Below, in pieces: positions 32,674-42,087 of a stretch of 64,000 nt of DNA. How positions within the stretch are numbered: the first letter of the stretch is position 1; the number at the start of each line of letters is the position of its first letter. The translations under genes and the position numbers were made by a program. Origin of the DNA: Deltaproteobacteria bacterium (GTDB taxonomy: Bacteria > Myxococcota_A > UBA9042 > DTJE01); the NCBI GenBank assembly GCA_029555025.1, contig JAKPTZ010000017.1:62001-126000 (forward strand). The letters run 5' to 3'. The notes under the pieces are model-generated. The model was not told the DNA's origin, ran no database searches, and saw only the letters and a list, made by a program, of their open reading frames with translations.

Positions 32674-32970
32674 ATGCTGAACGAAGGCGCGCGCGGAACC
32701 GTGATCGAGATAAGCGTCCGTCCCAGAGCCGGAAAGTGCCGCATCGTCGAAGTCGGTCCGGACAGGGTTCGAATCGAGGTCACGGCGGCTCCGGAGGGAG
32801 GAAAGGCGACCGAACAGGCCCTGCGCACCCTTGCCGATGCCCTCGGCGTCATGGCTTCGGGACTGAAACTCCTGACAGGAAAGACCGCCAGGCACAAAAC
32901 GATCCTGGTTTGCGGGGCCACCGCGGCCGACTGCGAATCAAGACTGAAACAGGCCGTTGCAGGACACTGA
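32674..32970 (+). CDS. DUF167/YggU family protein
   Basis: A 98-residue protein of the DUF167 (YggU) family: ISVRPRAGKCRI, VRIEVTAAPEGGKATEQAL, LADALGV and LLTGKTARHKTILV fit the conserved pattern of short beta strands and a Gly-Lys-Ala turn. The family is widespread, small and of unknown biochemical role. It starts shortly after an extended -10 promoter and is followed 21 bases later by lnt. Confidence 0.88.
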   Translation: MLNEGARGTVIEISVRPRAGKCRIVEVGPDRVRIEVTAAPEGGKATEQALRTLADALGVMASGLKLLTGKTARHKTILVCGATAADCESRLKQAVAGH

Positions 32971-32991: not shown

Positions 32992-35586
32992 ATGGCACGA
33001 AAGAACCCTTCCGCCAAAAAGACGACTTCCGGTATCGGGCCGATTGTGCCGATCTGGCTGGCAATCCTGCTGGCAATCTTCGGCGGGTGCCTGATCTTCT
33101 TGAGCTTCCCGACGTTCGACATCTTCCCGCTGTCGTTCTTCGGCGTCGCCATGATGCTCCTGGCAATCCGTGGGCGTGGGGCCGCCGCCGGCTTCTGGCT
33201 TGGACTCCTGACAGGTTTTGTCACGAACCTGGGCGGGTTTTACTGGATATCTTACATGCTGCGGGAATTCGCCCACATGACCGTCTGGCTGTCGTGGGTA
33301 ATCACCTGCATGATGGTGGCGGTCCAGGGCCTTGTCTATGCGATTCCTGCCGCAATATCCTCAGGCTTTGCCAACAGGTTCCCGAAGCTGCCCTGGATGC
33401 TGTTCTTCCCCGTGATCTTCACGGCCGTCGAATACCTGTTTCCACTGATATTCCCATGGTATCTGGCAAACGGGCAGCAGAAGTTCACGGCGCTGATTCA
33501 GATGGCCGACATCACCGGGGCCGCCGGCATCACATTCCTGATAATCCTTGTCAACTGCTCGATAGCGGACATCGCCGCACGTCGGATTTCGGGGGCTGGA
33601 TTTCCCGCAGTCAGCGTCGCAGTTGCTTCCGTTGCTCTGGTTGCCGCCCTGGCATACGGGATGTTCAGGATCGACCAGATTGACCAAAGGATGGAAGCGG
33701 CCCCAAAACTGAAGGTTGGAATGGTCGAGGCCGACATCGGGATCTGGGAAAAGGAAGCCCGGAACCAGGACGGATCTCCGCTGGACGGGGCCGGCCAGAT
33801 GGCGATGCTGTACTCAAACCTGTTGAAACACCAGTATCTTTCGCAGACCCTGGAAAGGGAACACAAACCGGATCTCATCGTCTGGCCGGAATCTTCCTAC
33901 TTCCCGCTCTACCAGGTCTTTTCCAGGCGCAACCCTGCCAGCCTGCTGGCCGTGACGGCCGGAGGAAGCCTTGTCGGCGTGACGGACAGTTCCGCCACTG
34001 TTGATGCGGAGTCGTCAAAGGTATTCCGGGACTCCGGCCTTACGGCGATTTCCGCGCAGAATGAGGAAAACATCCTGGCTGTCGGGCCGCGGGGCGCGAT
34101 CTACAAGTTCGACGGCGTGAAATATTTAAGGGAAGAATCCGGCACGGATCGCAACCTGAACGCTGTAGCGTGGTCCTTCGATGACGGCTCCGCTATGGCG
34201 GTCGGAGATAACGGGGTAGTGCTGCTGAGGGAGCTGGATCAGGACTCAAAGGCTTCATGGAAGGTGGTCGATACCGGACGAAACTTCACGCTGCGCGGTG
34301 TCGTCAAGACACCGAAGTATGGATGGGTGGCTTGCGGGGACAATGGCAGCCTGATCTCGATTGACGAGGGACGTGTGCGCAGCCTTGTCCCGGATGGACT
34401 TCCTGACCTTACCGCCGTCACCTGGTCCGACAAGCTTGGCGTGGTGGCCGTGGGGCACCAGGGTGCAATCGTCACGATAAGCGGGCCGAACGAAGTGAAA
34501 ATGGAGCAGCCCTCAAAGAAGACGCTGCGCGCCGTATGGGCCGATTCCCTCATATGGGCGGTCGGGGACGACGGCCTGGTCGTGCTGTGCGACTCGACCT
34601 GCCACACGGTCAAATCTGGCGTCAGGCGCACGCTGAACGCCATCGGCTACATGGGCAGGGGTTCCGTGGTGGCCGGTGGCCTTGACGGCATCCTGCTGGA
34701 ACTGTCCCAGGACAAGGGGCCTCGAAGGATTGAAGGCGCCTCGGGACGAATCACCGGCATCACCGACCTGCCTTTCGTCGAAGGTTATCCATTCCCGACG
34801 GACGTGAAAAAGATCTATGTTTCACGGACTCCGCTGCCGCAGGAAGGTTCGGCCGGGGATCTTCTTCCGGCCTACGAGTCCGACAGGAAAAGGCCGCCGG
34901 CCGAACGCAATTCGGTAATGCGCGGGTTTTCAACTCCGATGATATTCGGGGCCGCGACCCAGGAGAGGTTCCCCGCCCCCGGCAAGGCGCCCGTTCGACA
35001 CAATACGGCGATAATGATGGACGGCTCGGGGCAGGTGCTTGGCACGTACTTCAAAAACCGCCTGCTCATCTTCGGCGAATACATTCCGCTGGAAGGACTT
35101 TTCCCGATTTTCAGGAAATGGCTGCCCGAGGCGGGAGACTGGACGCCTGGCGACGGACCGGCCCTGTTCGCGCTGGGCGACGCAAAGATCGGCATATCCA
35201 TCTGCTATGAAGGTCTTCTGGCCGGTTTCCACAGGAAGCTGGCGGCGCTGGAACCCAACGTTTACGTGAACATAACGAACGACGCCTGGTTCGGGCGTAC
35301 CCATGAACCATGGCTGCACCTGCAACTGGCCGAACTCAGGGCGGTTGAGGCCAGGACGCCCATGGTGCGTTCGACAAACACCGGGATTAGCGCCTTTGTC
35401 GATGCCGTCGGCAGACGGACGGCACACACAGCGATTGAGGGTGCCGAAGTCCTGGTCGGTGAAGTGGCCCTGACCAGCGAAAAAACAATATACGTGCGAT
35501 ACGGCGATGTTTTCGCCTGGGCGTGCTGCGGCATCGCCGCAATCATGATTCTTGCGCTTGCCGCCGGCCGGCGCCGCCGCGCATGA
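32992..35586 (+). CDS. lnt: Apolipoprotein N-acyltransferase with inserted beta-propeller
   Basis: Lnt adds the third acyl chain to lipoproteins at the periplasmic face of the inner membrane. The N-terminal membrane region (to about 225) and the C-terminal helix fit the family, and the nitrilase domain keeps all three catalytic residues: Glu300 in VWPES, Lys688 in YFKNRLLIFGEYIPL and Cys738 in ICYEG. Related Lnts are about 510 residues; this one has 864. The extra 320 residues lie between Glu300 and Lys688 (about 318-642) and form six repeated units of about 40 residues with the pattern L(N/T/R)AVxW...AVGDxGxV. Because the nitrilase domain is periplasmic, the propeller should be too. The frame is uninterrupted. 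Essential lipoprotein maturation and many lipoproteins nearby make the enzyme role certain; the insert's role is unknown. Confidence 0.93.
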   Translation: MARKNPSAKKTTSGIGPIVPIWLAILLAIFGGCLIFLSFPTFDIFPLSFFGVAMMLLAIRGRGAAAGFWLGLLTGFVTNLGGFYWISYMLREFAHMTVWLSWVITCMMVAVQGLVYAIPAAISSGFANRFPKLPWMLFFPVIFTAVEYLFPLIFPWYLANGQQKFTALIQMADITGAAGITFLIILVNCSIADIAARRISGAGFPAVSVAVASVALVAALAYGMFRIDQIDQRMEAAPKLKVGMVEADIGIWEKEARNQDGSPLDGAGQMAMLYSNLLKHQYLSQTLEREHKPDLIVWPESSYFPLYQVFSRRNPASLLAVTAGGSLVGVTDSSATVDAESSKVFRDSGLTAISAQNEENILAVGPRGAIYKFDGVKYLREESGTDRNLNAVAWSFDDGSAMAVGDNGVVLLRELDQDSKASWKVVDTGRNFTLRGVVKTPKYGWVACGDNGSLISIDEGRVRSLVPDGLPDLTAVTWSDKLGVVAVGHQGAIVTISGPNEVKMEQPSKKTLRAVWADSLIWAVGDDGLVVLCDSTCHTVKSGVRRTLNAIGYMGRGSVVAGGLDGILLELSQDKGPRRIEGASGRITGITDLPFVEGYPFPTDVKKIYVSRTPLPQEGSAGDLLPAYESDRKRPPAERNSVMRGFSTPMIFGAATQERFPAPGKAPVRHNTAIMMDGSGQVLGTYFKNRLLIFGEYIPLEGLFPIFRKWLPEAGDWTPGDGPALFALGDAKIGISICYEGLLAGFHRKLAALEPNVYVNITNDAWFGRTHEPWLHLQLAELRAVEARTPMVRSTNTGISAFVDAVGRRTAHTAIEGAEVLVGEVALTSEKTIYVRYGDVFAWACCGIAAIMILALAAGRRRRA
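33943..34917 (+). repeat. Beta-propeller insertion inside the Lnt nitrilase domain
   Basis: The region encodes about 325 residues with six blade-like units starting near residues 350, 389, 434, 473, 512 and 548: LTAISAQNEENILAVG, LNAVAWSFDDGSAMAVG, LRGVVKTPKYGWVACG, LTAVTWSDKLGVVAVG, LRAVWADSLIWAVG and LNAIGYMGRGSVVAGG. Each is followed by a (D/G)xGxxxxx strand. This is the Ycf48/BNR or WD-like layout. The canonical Lnt sequence resumes at about 647 with STPMIFGAAT. Boundaries are approximate. Confidence 0.8.
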
Positions 35587-36160
35587 CAAGCGCCGGCAGA
35601 TTGACCGCATCAACGATTACGTGCATCGCGACAGGCGCGACAAGCGATCCGGTCATCATGTAAAGGCCCCCGGCCGCCAGCCCGCCAGCCAGGGCGAACA
35701 ACCCCCACAGAACCAGCCCGCGCCTGAACAGGCCGTGAACGGCGGCAAACAGGACGGAAGTCACGCCAAAAGCCCACCACCTGCCAACCATCGATTCCAC
35801 GAGGGACCAGAGTGCGCCACGGAAGACAAGCTCCTCGGAAACACCTGCCATCACGGCCAGGACAAGCGCGCCGGCGGGCGAAAGTTCCTTTGTGGCGGAA
35901 GCAAGGACGGATGCCATTCGCCGGCCCGAGGCGGAAAAAAATACCAGAAGCCATGAAGCAATGATCAGAATTGCGGCAACCGCCGCGCCGGCAAGAACGG
36001 ACACGGCCCAGGATCGGGCATCGGCGGGAAACGCCGCAAAGCCGAAAATCCGGGGAAAAGCCCGGGCGGCGGCGGCCGATAGAATGCCCGCGACGGCATA
36101 AAAGACCAGCCCCGCGACGAGCAGCCGCCAACGACCCGGCCTGTTCCCGGATTCACCCAT
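35543..36160 (-). CDS. CPBP-family intramembrane metalloprotease (CAAX-like)
   Basis: About 205 residues from ATG 36160. It has at least six membrane helices and the CPBP/Abi motifs: EELVFRGAL (EExxxR), AAVHGLFR (HxxxR) and HVIVDAVN (HxxxN). The Glu and His residues form the metal site of this intramembrane protease family. In bacteria the family includes CAAX-type processing and bacteriocin-immunity proteins; its substrate is unknown. It overlaps the murU-like gene by eight bases and the convergent lnt by 44 bases. Confidence 0.82.
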   Translation of the reverse strand: MGESGNRPGRWRLLVAGLVFYAVAGILSAAAARAFPRIFGFAAFPADARSWAVSVLAGAAVAAILIIASWLLVFFSASGRRMASVLASATKELSPAGALVLAVMAGVSEELVFRGALWSLVESMVGRWWAFGVTSVLFAAVHGLFRRGLVLWGLFALAGGLAAGGLYMMTGSLVAPVAMHVIVDAVNLPALVMRGGAGRRQAQES

Positions 36161-37169
36161 TGTTCTTAACCGGCCCATCGGGAAGGGCAATACCAGAGAA
36201 CTTGCCGGATACCACCGCACCTGCCATCACAACGGCATTGCCGACATCCGAACCCGGCATTATCCGGCCGCTGCAAGTGACGTTCGGGCCGATCGTCGCG
36301 CCGGTTCCAACCCATGCGCCATCGGAAACGAAGGCCGGACCGTGAAACACAACGTCCGAATCGATCCGGGCCCGACCGGATACGAATACCGACGGGCCAA
36401 TTTCGGGAGGCACGGGGAATCCCCTTCGGGAAAGCAGCATCGGGGCCGCCGGTATTGCCCTTGAACACAGATCGAGATAGCTGCCGATTGTCCCGATGTC
36501 GCAATACCACGTGTCGTCGAATTCAACGGAGGCAGGCCTTATTCCAAGCCTCAAGGCCGGGATCAATCCGTCACCGACCAGGCACGGACTGAAAGAGTCG
36601 TCGCCGCGCCTGGCAACGGTGTCACGGAGAATCTCCAGAATCTGCGGGCCAACGACTGAAACGCCACCATAAACGACCTTCCTGCCGCCGCCGGGCGCCG
36701 GCAGTCCACGAAGGGCCGACACGGAACCGTCGGGCGCCAGTTCAACCCTTCGTTCCGACGGGTCAAGGCGCGAGCCGTCCAGCACCCCAAGCACCGTCCG
36801 GGCCGATGCCCCGACAAGCCGCCCGATGTCCCAGTCGCTGAAGATGTCGCCGTTGTGGACAAGAACGCCATCCGAATCGCCAATCAAGTCAAGGGCCCTG
36901 ACCAGCGCACCTCCGGTTCCGAGAACCCTTTCCTCGTGCGAATAGGTGATCCCGACACCCAGCCGCGAACCGTCCCCGAGCACGCCGACCACGGATTCGG
37001 GAATATGGTGAAGGTTGACAACCAGCTCGGTCACGCCGGCATTTCGCAACCCGGCAACCACCCACTCGACAAGCGGCATTCCAAGCACTGGAAATGCCGG
37101 CTTCGCGATTCGGGCGGAATAGGGGAGCAGCCTTGTGCCGAGCCCGGCCGCCAGTATGAACCCCTTCAT
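36153..37169 (-). CDS. Nucleotidyltransferase of MurU type (sugar-1-phosphate)
   Basis: 338 residues. The N-terminal signature is ILAAGLGTRLLPYSARIAKPAFPVLG, as in sugar-nucleotide pyrophosphorylases, with VLVHNGDIFSDWD carrying the metal-binding Asp. The C-terminal 90 residues form a partial left-handed beta helix with IGPSVFVSGRARIDSDV-type turns, longer than the usual MurU. It directly follows an AmgK-like kinase gene (two bases between), the pair that in Pseudomonas salvages cell-wall MurNAc. I therefore infer MurNAc 1-phosphate uridylylation. Mannose 1-phosphate guanylylation is the alternative. Confidence 0.78.
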   Translation of the reverse strand: MKGFILAAGLGTRLLPYSARIAKPAFPVLGMPLVEWVVAGLRNAGVTELVVNLHHIPESVVGVLGDGSRLGVGITYSHEERVLGTGGALVRALDLIGDSDGVLVHNGDIFSDWDIGRLVGASARTVLGVLDGSRLDPSERRVELAPDGSVSALRGLPAPGGGRKVVYGGVSVVGPQILEILRDTVARRGDDSFSPCLVGDGLIPALRLGIRPASVEFDDTWYCDIGTIGSYLDLCSRAIPAAPMLLSRRGFPVPPEIGPSVFVSGRARIDSDVVFHGPAFVSDGAWVGTGATIGPNVTCSGRIMPGSDVGNAVVMAGAVVSGKFSGIALPDGPVKNNG

Positions 37170-37171
37170 CT

Positions 37172-38212
37172 TCAGAAATGCTCCGGAAGGTACCTTTTCA
37201 GAACCGCCCTGGCCTGAGCGTACTCGGGAAGATGATCGAACGCCTCGGCCACGTACGCAAGCGACTGCGGTATGTTTGGAAGGAACTTGGGATTTCCCTT
37301 GACCCGGTCTATGAACACGAACCGCCCCGCATCCTTCAACTTGCGCTGCAAGGCCTGCAGGTGGAAAAGGCGCCGGATTTCTTTAATATCGGGAATCCAT
37401 GGCATCAACGGCCTGCCGACCTCGTGATAATACGAAAGAAAATCGTCAACTTCCGAAGGACTGAATTTCACGTAGGAATCACGGAGCAGGGCCACCAGGT
37501 CATAAATAAAGGGGCCGACAAGCGCGTCCTGAAAATCGATGACCCTCATCCGGCCATCCTTGATCATCAGATTTCGACTCTGGTAATCCCGATGCACGAA
37601 CCCCTGGCGCATCGCCGTCAACCTGGATGTTACATCCTGGAAGAACGCCTTCAATAACGCCGAGTCGGCCGCATCCGGCTCTCGCCCGCACATCTCGACC
37701 AATCCCCACTCGCGGAAGTGATCGAATTCCCACATCAGCAGATCGGCATCGAACGACCGCTTGAAGGCAACATTCGAAGGGTCGGGATTGAGAAAGGCCC
37801 AGTACTGCATGTCAACAAGCACGTCGATGGCCCATCGGTACAGGTCACGACGGTTTCCGCCCGCCGCAAGAGCCCGTTCGAGCGTGACGTCGCCAAGATC
37901 CTCGAGCACCAGGAAACCGGCATCAAGGTCTGTAACCAGGATTTCCGGAACCGCGACATTGCCCCGCGAAAGATAATCGGCCACGTCACAGAAAGGAAGT
38001 CGCCTTGAAGCCCCCCCCGACGGCCCTTCCTCGCTTGAAAAGGGCTCGGCGGCAAGCTTCATGACCATGAACCGGCCGGGGCCGGAAAGCCTGAAATATG
38101 ACCTGTTTGAAGCGTCGCCGGGAAGCCTCGTCACTTCCCAGCCGACGGGAACGGTTCCGCCTGAAAAATCCCGAAATGCACGCGCCGCATCTTCACCGGA
38201 TCCCGACATCAT
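37172..38212 (-). CDS. Anomeric sugar kinase of AmgK type (APH fold)
   Basis: About 346 residues if translation begins at ATG 38212 (371 from the longest frame at 38287; no start has a clear Shine-Dalgarno). It has the aminoglycoside-phosphotransferase fold: LPGDASNRSYFRL near the start, LVLEDLGDVTLE, then the catalytic HRDYQSRNLMI and VIDFQDALVGPFIYDLVALL. AmgK phosphorylates the anomeric position of MurNAc or GlcNAc during peptidoglycan recycling. The partner nucleotidyltransferase lies just downstream. I see no antibiotic resistance context, so a cell-wall recycling role is more likely than aminoglycoside modification. Confidence 0.8.
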   Translation of the reverse strand: MMSGSGEDAARAFRDFSGGTVPVGWEVTRLPGDASNRSYFRLSGPGRFMVMKLAAEPFSSEEGPSGGASRRLPFCDVADYLSRGNVAVPEILVTDLDAGFLVLEDLGDVTLERALAAGGNRRDLYRWAIDVLVDMQYWAFLNPDPSNVAFKRSFDADLLMWEFDHFREWGLVEMCGREPDAADSALLKAFFQDVTSRLTAMRQGFVHRDYQSRNLMIKDGRMRVIDFQDALVGPFIYDLVALLRDSYVKFSPSEVDDFLSYYHEVGRPLMPWIPDIKEIRRLFHLQALQRKLKDAGRFVFIDRVKGNPKFLPNIPQSLAYVAEAFDHLPEYAQARAVLKRYLPEHF

Positions 38213-38341
38213 CCAAACCCCGAAAGATTCACGCAGAGCATAACGCATTCGGGCCGCGACCGGAAAACGCATGGCGCCCGGGGACACGAAGCTGTGCCTG
38301 CAATGAAGTGTTACGTCAGGCTGTCGGGGGTAATATCAGCG

Positions 38342-41300
38342 TCAGTTAAAAAGGCCGGCGTCGGCGATCGCCTGTTCCATGATGGCGATGCGGTCTTCAA
38401 GATCACGGATGGTTTCCGCCTGACGATTGATCTTGTCGTCAAGGTACTTGCTGGCAACCAGCAGGAAACCGACCGAGTCGTTGGCGTACCATCCATCACC
38501 GCCGTTGGTGATGATTTCCGGCATTTCGTCGAGAATCAGACCGATGTGCGGGACGTTACGGATGAACATCTTATCGGTGCTCTCGTTGGCCTCGGCCGCG
38601 GCGACTTCGTGATTGTAGAGGAAGGTTGCCGGCTTAATCTGCTGCAGCGCCTTGCCGATGGAATCCATGTCGCGCTTGTTCAGATAACGGATGTCCTTCT
38701 TCAGCTCACGATTCGACGTCCAGACGCTGTTGATCGAGTACATGAACGCGAAGCGCTTTCCGGACATGCCGACCGCGCCCTGGCCGTCGGTATGCGGAAT
38801 GATGCTCGTATTTCCGTACATGCGGATACCGGTGCCCCAGTCGCCGTTACCGACGACGAACAGGCCGTTCGTTCCATCGATGCGCAGACCCTGATGGACA
38901 CGCAGGTAATACGTCGAGATGTACTGGGAGTAGATCTCGTAGGCGTTGGAAGTGTTACCGGCGTCCATGACGCAGGTCGGGCTGACGCTGTCAACCATCG
39001 ACGGCGCCTTGAAGGTGCCGACGACTTCGGTCGTGCCGCCGCTCTGATCCCAGTTCAGCAGCAGGCGCTTGTCGGTGGAACCGGAGTTGATCACCAGGTA
39101 TCCGCCGTTGGTCCGGAAGGACGGGATGCCGGCCGAAACGTTGCCGTTAAGGCTGAAGACCATCCTGTCGTTTCCGGCAAAGCGCATCAGAACGAAAGCC
39201 GACCCGTTCGGTGCCGGGCTGATGTAAAGGTTCGTGCCGGAGGATGCGAACTGGCCGTAACCGTTGGGCGGGTCACCCTGCCAGGAACCGGTGGTTCTGA
39301 AGCTGTTGCCGTAATGAACATTGAAGTAAGACGCGCTGCTGGGATCCAGGTAGTATCCCGTCGCACCGTCGTTCCACTGGGTATCGAAAGCGTACGTTGT
39401 TCCGTTGATGTAGTTGGTCGTCGTGCCGGTCGCGGGAAGCTGAACGGTGTTCGTTTCCAGGGTCGCGATCTTGCTGTGGGAAGCGGGATCGACCACATAC
39501 GCGCCGGAATCTTCATCAACCAGGGACTTTGCCTTCAACGTTCCGTGGATCGTCATGATGTTCGATCCGCAGGTCGTTCCATAGACATCGATAAGACCGC
39601 AGGCGTTCTTGGCGATGTAAAGGGTCTCGCCGTTGGCCGCGTCGATGCTGCTGGTGTAAAGCGACATCGTCCCGCCGCCGTTCGTCTTCAAACCATAGTA
39701 GTTATTGGTTCGAAGCTGGAAGTTGGACGCGTTGATAGTGTTCATCACAGAGGTCGCCTGGGGATCCGCGTACCAGTTCGGCGAACCGGTGACATCGACG
39801 AACTTCTGGGCCCAGACTTCACCCGCGGTCACCTTGCCGGTGGTCGTGAGCTGGAGGGCCGGGTTCAGGTCAGCGCCGGTGATGGTGCCGTCATAAATGT
39901 CGTTGGTCGTGACCGTTCCGTCGGCAATATCCGTGGTGTCAACGCAGCCGGTGCAGGAAAGCGCGCCGTCCATCTGGACGGAGCCGGCGTGATACGCGTT
40001 GCCGTTCGCGAACAGGCGGTGCCTGGCGCCGGTGTAGGCGCCGGTGCCTTCGATTTCGAAGTACGAACCGGAACCGGCCGCGGCCTGGCCGAGGGAAAGC
40101 CTGATCTGGGCATTGCCGTCGCCGCCGGTCGAAACTTCCTGCAGGCGGGCCGGATACGAACCGGGATTGTCGCTGCCGTCGAGGAAGTCGATGTACTTGC
40201 CGTCGCCGAGGGTCAGGTGATCAATGCCCTGCTCGAAGTACTGATCTCCGTGGTTGTGATCCTTCTGGGCAACCTGGGTCCAGTCGGGCGTGATCGAACC
40301 GGATGAAATCGCGATGCCGGAGCCGATTTTCACGACGCCGAGGTCGGTCGTGGTCGCGGTGGTGATCTTCGAGCCCGTGATCGGGCCGGTGATGTCGGCA
40401 TTGACAATCGTGCCGTCGCTGATGTCGCCGCTGTCAACGCAGCCGACGCACAGCAGGTCGTTGGCCGGGCCACCCTTGGTGGCGGAAGCGGCCCAGTTGA
40501 AATCGACTTCGTTGGTGCTGACGCAGGCGCTGCCGCAGGCAAGGCCGGTCGCGTCGCCACCCCGGGAGGTCGAATTCGCGTAATTGAAGTTGACTTCGGT
40601 TGATGCGATGCAGTTCGTGCAGGCCACGTCCGATGCCGGACCGCCCTCGCTGGTCGAGCCAGCGTAGTTGAACTGCACTTCACCGGAGCCGACGCAGTCG
40701 GTGCAGGCCAGATCGACGGCAGCGCCGCCCTTCGTGGCGCCGGCCGCGTACTGGAACGATACTTCGCCGGCCTCGACGCAGCCGCCGGGAATCGCAAGGC
40801 AGTCCAGGTTTGCCGACGGGCCGCCCTTCGTGGTGCCAAGCGCGTAATTGAAACCGGCTTCAAGGTCGGAAACGCACGGCCCCGAGCAGTTCAGATCCGC
40901 GGCAGGCCCGCCCTTCGACGTACCGAGCGCGTAGTTCACGCCGAGCTGGGTGTCGCCGACCGCGCCGGTGCCGATCTTTACCGTTGTCACGGCGCCGGTG
41001 GCCAGGTCGTTCGTCGTTACCTGTCCGTCCTCGATGTTACCGGTCTTGACCGAATTCGCGCCCAGCTTCGAATTGCTGATCGCGCCATCGGCGATGTTGC
41101 CGTTCTGAACCTGGCCGGCGCCGATGTTATTGGTCGTGATGGATCCGGCGGCGATGTCGCCGGGTGCCCCGCCCGAAACGCAGCCGTTGCAGTTCACGTC
41201 GGTGGCGGGACCGCCACGCGTCGTACTGCCCGCGTACGGGAACGATACTTCATTGTCGCCGATGCAGCCGACGCAGTTCACGTCGGTCGCGGCGCCAAGA

Positions 41301-41695
41301 AGTTCGTCCGCCTGTTCCGCGTGTTCGGCCTGGATGGCGAACCCGACGGATGTCAGCGGGATGCGGGCCAGTTCGGCGTCACTGCCGACCTGGATGCCCA
41401 GATAGGCGGCCGTCCTGTTGACGAATGCCGTTGCCGGGCAGGTGACCGACGTGTTGAACACGCCGCCGGTCACGGAGATGCTGGTGATGTTCTGACACAG
41501 AACAGCACCGCCTCCGATCGCATCGTAAATCGTGAACTTGACCGAATACGTTCCGGTTACAACTTCACCGCCCACGTTTCTCAAGACACCCTGGATATTG
41601 ATGCCGTGAGGAACGGCATCAAGGGCCAGCGCGCCTGGGACGTACAGTCCGGCAAAAAGCACGGCTGCAGCCACGTACTTGAGAAGCGACTTCAT
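38342..41695 (-). CDS. Large exported protein with collagen-like/tail-fibre repeats and S74 chaperone domain
   Basis: 1117 residues from ATG 41695, which has a perfect GGAGGTGA Shine-Dalgarno; upstream frame is noise. A signal peptide (AAAVLFAGLYVPGALA) is followed by an N-terminal beta domain (GINIQGVLRNVGG), then tandem Cys-containing repeats such as GGPAxDLxCxxCVxxxEVxFNYA (about residues 130-430), long tail-fibre-like regions, and at the C-terminus an intramolecular chaperone of peptidase S74: SNRELKKDIRYL from about residue 994, with the Ser and Lys that cut the chaperone off after trimer assembly, and a coiled-coil tail. Such chaperones help trimeric beta-helical fibres fold. It is most likely a surface trimer. 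Confidence 0.85.
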   Translation of the reverse strand: MKSLLKYVAAAVLFAGLYVPGALALDAVPHGINIQGVLRNVGGEVVTGTYSVKFTIYDAIGGGAVLCQNITSISVTGGVFNTSVTCPATAFVNRTAAYLGIQVGSDAELARIPLTSVGFAIQAEHAEQADELLGAATDVNCVGCIGDNEVSFPYAGSTTRGGPATDVNCNGCVSGGAPGDIAAGSITTNNIGAGQVQNGNIADGAISNSKLGANSVKTGNIEDGQVTTNDLATGAVTTVKIGTGAVGDTQLGVNYALGTSKGGPAADLNCSGPCVSDLEAGFNYALGTTKGGPSANLDCLAIPGGCVEAGEVSFQYAAGATKGGAAVDLACTDCVGSGEVQFNYAGSTSEGGPASDVACTNCIASTEVNFNYANSTSRGGDATGLACGSACVSTNEVDFNWAASATKGGPANDLLCVGCVDSGDISDGTIVNADITGPITGSKITTATTTDLGVVKIGSGIAISSGSITPDWTQVAQKDHNHGDQYFEQGIDHLTLGDGKYIDFLDGSDNPGSYPARLQEVSTGGDGNAQIRLSLGQAAAGSGSYFEIEGTGAYTGARHRLFANGNAYHAGSVQMDGALSCTGCVDTTDIADGTVTTNDIYDGTITGADLNPALQLTTTGKVTAGEVWAQKFVDVTGSPNWYADPQATSVMNTINASNFQLRTNNYYGLKTNGGGTMSLYTSSIDAANGETLYIAKNACGLIDVYGTTCGSNIMTIHGTLKAKSLVDEDSGAYVVDPASHSKIATLETNTVQLPATGTTTNYINGTTYAFDTQWNDGATGYYLDPSSASYFNVHYGNSFRTTGSWQGDPPNGYGQFASSGTNLYISPAPNGSAFVLMRFAGNDRMVFSLNGNVSAGIPSFRTNGGYLVINSGSTDKRLLLNWDQSGGTTEVVGTFKAPSMVDSVSPTCVMDAGNTSNAYEIYSQYISTYYLRVHQGLRIDGTNGLFVVGNGDWGTGIRMYGNTSIIPHTDGQGAVGMSGKRFAFMYSINSVWTSNRELKKDIRYLNKRDMDSIGKALQQIKPATFLYNHEVAAAEANESTDKMFIRNVPHIGLILDEMPEIITNGGDGWYANDSVGFLLVASKYLDDKINRQAETIRDLEDRIAIMEQAIADAGLFN
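40420..41310 (-). repeat. Tandem Cys-containing repeats in the S74 surface protein
   Basis: Consecutive units of about 28-32 residues share a conserved core of GG(P/A)A, DLxC or DVxC, xxC(V/I), EVxFNYAxSTxKGG. At least six are recognisable, with paired Cys in each, so disulphides between neighbouring strands or chains are likely. The DNA repeats are diverged, so the array is older than the one at 12421-12978. Confidence 0.7.
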
Positions 41696-42087
41696 CTGGG
41701 TCACCTCCAGTCCTGAAACTTCATTGTCATCAACGTACCACCGTCGGCATGCCAGCCGGCAGCAACCCCCGGGAGACCATTTTTCGCCAATTATCGCCAC
41801 GTGGTATGCATTATTTTCATAACAACGCACGCCACATCCACGTCCTGAAAAACCAAAAAACCGAGATTTCAAGGCTTTACAGGGCGCGGGACGACTCAAG
41901 CGAAAGTCGACCCCACACCGAGTTCATATTTTAGCACTCTTCGTGCCATGCTGCACCAGATCTTTTTTATTTCGCACGGATTTGCCAAAACGTTTCTACA
42001 GGTCGGCCCGTCCAACCGGATTTGACATCATTTGACATAAGGGGGCCGTCAAATCTATCCTCGCGACAGGCTTTCGGGGAGGTGCCC
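41696..42087. promoter_or_regulatory. Divergent intergenic region with direct-repeat promoter
   Basis: 392 bases with no gene of its own. On the plus side, TTTGACATCA (42021-42030) is repeated as TTTGACATAA (42031-42040); the second TTGACA (42032-42037) with an 18-base gap and TATCCT (42056-42061) is a likely promoter for the next lipoprotein gene. On the minus side I see no strong promoter for the S74 protein, only AT-rich stretches near 41780-41870. An 8-bp palindrome CCACGTGG lies at 41797-41804. Confidence 0.5.

Follow-up and report, generated by a model that had tools for sequence, protein, structure and literature searches.

The lipoprotein N-acyltransferase Lnt is a core enzyme of the envelope and a target for antibiotics. 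In the published structures consulted here, hardly anything of the substrate is recognised apart from the lipid and the initial residues. In the Escherichia coli enzyme Arm 5 is one of the loops that ring the active-site funnel (PMC5500888), and the Lnt arms 3 and 7 have been reported to open or change their shape, admitting the lipopeptide (PMC10313180). Known elaborations of the enzyme are the mycobacterial Lnt-Ppm1 fusion and the paired Lnts of Streptomyces scabies, Lnt1 and Lnt2, two homologues whose roles within the same cell are unequal, both as given in one paper (PMC3850990).

The stretch of DNA analysed here (the window, 64,000 nucleotides) encodes an Lnt with a propeller built into its catalytic domain. 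We regard this architecture as near certain, and it is a new form of a known enzyme. In Ppm1 the Lnt is fused to a glycosyltransferase, and there too an extra domain is present, but the two parts simply follow one another, Lnt first, whereas in the window the added domain breaks into the catalytic domain by the active site; the Streptomyces pair parallels the two Lnts found in our class of bacteria, the accessible part of the same paper mentioning no propeller for Streptomyces (PMC3850990). The insert itself is similar in repeat profile and predicted fold to the seven-bladed propellers Ycf48/HCF136 (PDB 2XBG, 5OJ5), but these, and the propeller proteins of Myxococcota, stand alone, while the window propeller sits inside an enzyme. 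Our literature search, thin on subscription papers, turned up neither an Lnt nor any other nitrilase into which a propeller is inserted; this agrees with a first-pass annotation of the same DNA, which knew of no Lnt of this design, and the form appears to be undescribed.

Results

The gene, its parts and its immediate upstream neighbour are located in the window as follows.

32674..32970, + strand: DUF167/YggU gene, directly upstream of the long lnt (Pfam PF02594, 9.8e-18; synteny)
32992..35586, + strand: lnt-type gene, Lnt with propeller insert, 864 aa (ATG at 32992, stop at 35586)
33085..33558, + strand: membrane domain LNT_N, residues 32-189 (Pfam PF20154, E 1.4e-28; predicted helices)
33700..33924, + strand: first half of the nitrilase-like domain, residues 237-311, with Trp252 and Glu300 (alignments)
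33889-33891, + strand: codon of catalytic Glu300 (alignments)
33925..34782, + strand: propeller insert, residues 312-597 (motif repeats, profile search, predicted structure)
34588..34602, + strand: Cys533/Cys537 (CX3C) in blade 6 (invariant in 8 aligned sequences of family f1; the Cys pair matches in f2)
34783..34938, + strand: post-propeller linker, residues 598-649, YPFPTDV..Y.S..PLP...RGFSTP (alignments; kept in a propeller-less paralog)
34939..35481, + strand: second half of the nitrilase-like domain, with Lys688, Glu696 and Cys738 (Pfam PF00795; alignments)
35053-35055 and 35203-35205, + strand: codons of Lys688 and Cys738 (alignments)
35509..35580, + strand: C-terminal transmembrane helix, residues 840-863 (predicted helix)

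Sequence comparison and structure prediction together establish the product as a genuine Lnt-family enzyme with an intact active site, and thus bear out the first-pass identification. Besides LNT_N, Pfam recognises CN_hydrolase at residues 657-827 (E 5.8e-20), with no domain match between the two, and the NCBIfam model lnt (TIGR00546) scores 219.1 bits against a curated cut-off of 132.9, in two stretches split by the insert. When the predicted full chain was submitted to Foldseek, all solved Lnt structures came out as the top matches (E 2.9e-19 to 7.8e-16), and they were also matched by sequence search; the E. coli and P. aeruginosa enzymes (PDB 5N6H, 8B0P, 5N6M, 8AQ2) reach TM 0.75-0.81, normalised by the known structures, and have the membrane domain, the nitrilase-like domain, the triad and, probably, the gating residues in common with the window model.

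The triad Glu300, Lys688 and Cys738, as first proposed, is invariant in 23 of 23 aligned long homologues, and so are E696, Y739, E740 and H776, the equivalents of E343, Y388, E389 and H425. Position 252 is W or F in the 23 long Lnts; Trp252 lies in the loop corresponding to that of the gating Trp237 (Arm 7), a loop whose length differs from that in E. coli, the position being not strictly alignable. The catalysis of the propeller Lnt would be expected to be normal. The catalytic Glu and Lys are, as already noticed in the first reading, 388 residues apart, against 68 in E. coli Lnt, which like that of P. aeruginosa has no propeller, and 56-82 in nearly all ordinary Lnts sampled.

Residues 312-597, absent from ordinary Lnts, contain the motif LxAV...VGxxG six times, starting at residues 350, 389, 434, 473, 512 and 548, and none of 10,000 shuffled versions of the insert contained it more than once. 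A profile made from 23 inserts found mostly propellers in the PDB, with designed Cake propellers first (1.6e-19) and Ycf48 at 1e-12; five of the 23 match PF14870 (PSII_BNR/YCF48) at E up to 1, the best at 8e-8. The window's own insert alone has no significant PSII_BNR/YCF48 match in Pfam, and no Asp-box (SxDxGxTW) was seen by eye in residues 312-597, where SIDEGRVR is the nearest stretch; because of this absence we liken the insert to Ycf48 by its profile and do not file it as a member.

AlphaFold, supplied with an alignment of the window sequence and related-locus rows only, modelled the full chain with pLDDT 88.7 and pTM 0.88. The sole weak stretch inside the model, at about residues 510-556 (blade 6), is where the four most distant alignment rows are out of register; with the insert modelled alone from one sequence the blades form, including this stretch (pTM 0.68, pLDDT 62), and the best structural neighbours of that model are WD40 propellers of the RACK1 and WDR type, many of them seven-bladed, at TM of about 0.5-0.57. 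The AlphaFold model shows repeated four-stranded blades; the strands of six of them lie at residues 352-381, 389-427, 434-464, 473-505, 513-540 and 548-579, and a composite seventh blade is assembled from strands at about 309-337 and 587-592. Judging by this strand order, the insert would be a seven-bladed propeller with its ring closed by the N- and C-terminal strands.

The first-pass annotation had described a six-bladed propeller-like insertion, at about residues 318-642. The profile, AlphaFold and Foldseek uphold that the chain itself folds into a propeller between its catalytic Glu and Lys, and the six visible repeats stand, but the predicted strand order replaces six blades by seven, the extent becomes about 312-597, and closure of the ring fits the strand order of the model. 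In blade 6 the pair Cys533/Cys537 may possibly make a periplasmic disulfide or a metal site. Counted from the catalytic Glu, the insert starts some 12 residues further on, and it stops short of the linker to strand 650-657, a location that corresponds, by alignment and published arm definitions, to the Arm 5 loop of E. coli Lnt; because of this position the propeller is placed near the funnel.

The open reading frame 32992-35586 contains no internal stop codon, and its continuity rules out the insert as an independent ORF. That an assembly chimera or a frame artefact explains the insert has a negligible probability: the source is a draft MAG of 158 contigs, but the identical architecture occurs in independent assemblies over 11 families, together with conserved synteny, so a chimera is refuted and the doubt about frame and assembly raised in the first reading is cleared.

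The search of homologues for the same insert found it throughout one class of uncultivated Myxococcota, which rules out that the propeller Lnt is unique to the window's genome. The scan covered 46 genomes of the class with a completeness of 80% or more; this Lnt type is present in 44, and 40 of the 44, belonging to 11 families, have the propeller with the frame open; 35 of the 40 span it in one match and 5 in split or partial pieces. As for the remaining four, the propeller is shortened in G006, cut at a contig end in G004 and absent from G001 and G016. The Glu-Lys distance in the G006 protein (L075/L022) is 280 residues, about three blades being missing through a natural deletion or an assembly fault. 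In other Myxococcota this loop measures 92-135 residues, or 191-199 where it holds an insert of another kind that is not a propeller, and among the best 80 matches of one scan Lnts from other phyla have ordinary spacing. Lnts of families f41 and f42 (L155-L157, L170) have about 75 extra residues at this loop, which are not propeller-like. In a tree of 37 rows one clade of the class's long Lnts and their propeller-less kin is not rejected (p-AU 0.071), and the best tree requires five changes of the propeller state; a single origin of propeller Lnts would be compatible with these alignments, which neither reject nor establish it.

Most genomes of the class possess two Lnts, the long form and an ordinary form of 520-540 residues, the latter being a separate clade in the tree. 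In G010 and G012 both are on one contig, so contamination is not the cause of the second copy; G013, G027 and G028 (87-96% complete) have the long Lnt only. The window's genome is without an ordinary-length Lnt and has instead a 629-aa paralog (L001) on contig C18, with 52% identity to the window Lnt, which keeps the catalytic residues and the post-propeller linker and misses residues of about 320-593. In the tree L001 and L026, from the other genome of the genus, together form the fully supported sister group of the window protein, which means that the propeller was lost in them; it is absent also from L071. As this close paralog has none, the propeller is unnecessary for the family fold, and it is probably not needed for catalysis either. 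The first-pass annotation had considered the enzyme essential, which is not supported for this copy, the genome having a second Lnt without propeller on contig C18.

Some side observations belong to these paralogs. L026, the propeller-less Lnt of the sister species (G001), is broken by an in-frame TGA. The gene after the propeller-less paralog on contig C18 (L191, 2179-4731) encodes an 851-aa lipobox protein with a C39-like peptidase domain. The ordinary-length paralogs of the window's family, f1 (L056, L059, L061, L062, L064-L067), have no evident counterpart of Trp237 and make a separate divergent clade, and their function may differ from that of Lnt.

The propeller is the fastest-evolving part of the long Lnt: its mean pairwise identity is 24% across the class and 39% within the family, against 39-52% and 53-64%, respectively, for the membrane domain and the nitrilase halves. 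Apart from glycines and loop edges few propeller positions are conserved class-wide; in family f1 the invariants beyond glycines include E381, D386, R387, W423, C533 and C537. Such fast evolution with few class-wide conserved positions speaks against one shared ligand site, and would fit lineage-specific partners or weak constraint. Similar repeats are found in stand-alone proteins of the window's genome and are widespread in the phylum, so the propeller module could be of local origin. One protein of this genome (L175, contig C148), of 698 aa and lipobox-like, is made up of propeller repeats resembling those in the Lnt insert.

Discussion

Propellers commonly bind proteins, and the design seen in the window suggests an added docking module for lipoproteins or partner proteins. 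We propose, as a tentative reading that has somewhat less than an even chance of being right, that an active Lnt with a periplasmic propeller at the funnel rim is an exchangeable docking platform which biases the choice of lipoproteins or partners, the second Lnt covering other work. A phospholipid acyl chain would be passed to Cys738 and then to the lipoprotein N-terminus, in the normal two-step reaction, and the propeller, on the periplasmic side by the rim of the active-site funnel, would keep certain lipoproteins, bound by their protein moiety, or else a partner protein, close to the funnel entrance. In this way it would bias which lipoproteins are handled by the propeller-bearing copy, and in most of these cells other work would be left to the second, propeller-less Lnt. 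Two Lnts per genome are indeed typical, and elsewhere in Myxococcota the Arm 5 loop tolerates other insert sizes (92-199 residues). Against the docking proposal, our analysis found neither a ligand nor a partner nor a gene that co-occurs, so that the first-pass suggestion of lipoprotein substrates or Lol factors as what the insert binds gained no support from it, and L001/L026 and the Lnt of G016 manage without the propeller; its identity of only 24% across the class makes a single conserved binding site unlikely, and the three genomes with the long Lnt only indicate that a division of labour is not universal. A stronger version, in which the Lnt would be client-selective throughout the class, the rim propeller recognising a folded lipoprotein part or a partner, the export machinery for example, and N-acylation being sorted between the two Lnts, we consider unlikely.

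It would also be logical to ask whether the propeller is a structural decoration without a ligand of its own, passively tolerated or lending rigid support to the Arm 5 loop and the lid. Its fast evolution with mainly structural glycines conserved, the plentiful propellers of this kind in Myxococcota genomes, which were available for insertion, the acceptance of unrelated inserts by the same loop, and the loss in L001/L026 and absence in L071 all favour such a decoration. But an open, folded insert is kept by 40 of the 44 class genomes, in 11 families, which indicates that it is maintained and is not junk, since 280 residues without any use would be expected to decay more frequently, and the family f1 invariants beyond glycines also argue for more than a scaffold; we take decoration to be rather unlikely, yet still to be reckoned with. 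That the propeller takes the place of a loop adjoining the mobile arms which open and close the funnel would suit a role in sensing or regulation, with the active site gated on binding of peptidoglycan, a small molecule or an envelope protein, but no polar pocket is conserved class-wide and the syntenic locus is without a regulatory gene neighbourhood, so that we find a sensor very doubtful. Improbable, too, is an enzyme that has ceased to be a lipoprotein N-acyltransferase and acylates something else, the ordinary-length paralog being the true Lnt. Two copies in most genomes are in line with it, and Streptomyces scabies offers a precedent, its second Lnt homologue playing a subsidiary part (PMC3850990); however, it is the long form that keeps all the catalytic residues and W/F at the gating position, scores 217-232 bits against TIGR00546 and, in three genomes, is the sole Lnt observed, while the short paralogs checked in family f1 have no evident Trp there.

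Whichever reading is preferred, the Arm 5 loop is shown to accept large insertions, and the propeller-less paralog in the same genome makes a natural, ready-made comparison. A binding-type domain of 280 residues on an active-site arm would offer a handle on the question whether N-acylation of lipoproteins may be selective or tied to a partner and, if the client-selective version were true, lipoprotein N-acylation in Gram-negative bacteria would not be indiscriminate.

According to the synteny comparison, the order truA, flippase-like gene, DUF167 and long lnt is kept in family f1, together with several downstream genes, which indicates vertical descent. The syntenic locus runs from truA to the gene of a 1185-aa protein (truA, flippase-like, DUF167, long lnt, Rce1-like, NTP transferase, APH kinase, 1185-aa protein), and no clue to a partner was found among these neighbours of lnt. 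The NTP_transferase and APH-type kinase genes adjoin each other (36153-38287, - strand), and we presume them to resemble the MurU/AmgK pair of cell-wall recycling. The 1185-aa protein (38342-41899, - strand), also syntenic in family f1, is repetitive (GG.A.D..C..C) and without a Pfam match, and its C-terminal end is like a tail-fibre/chaperone-type domain.
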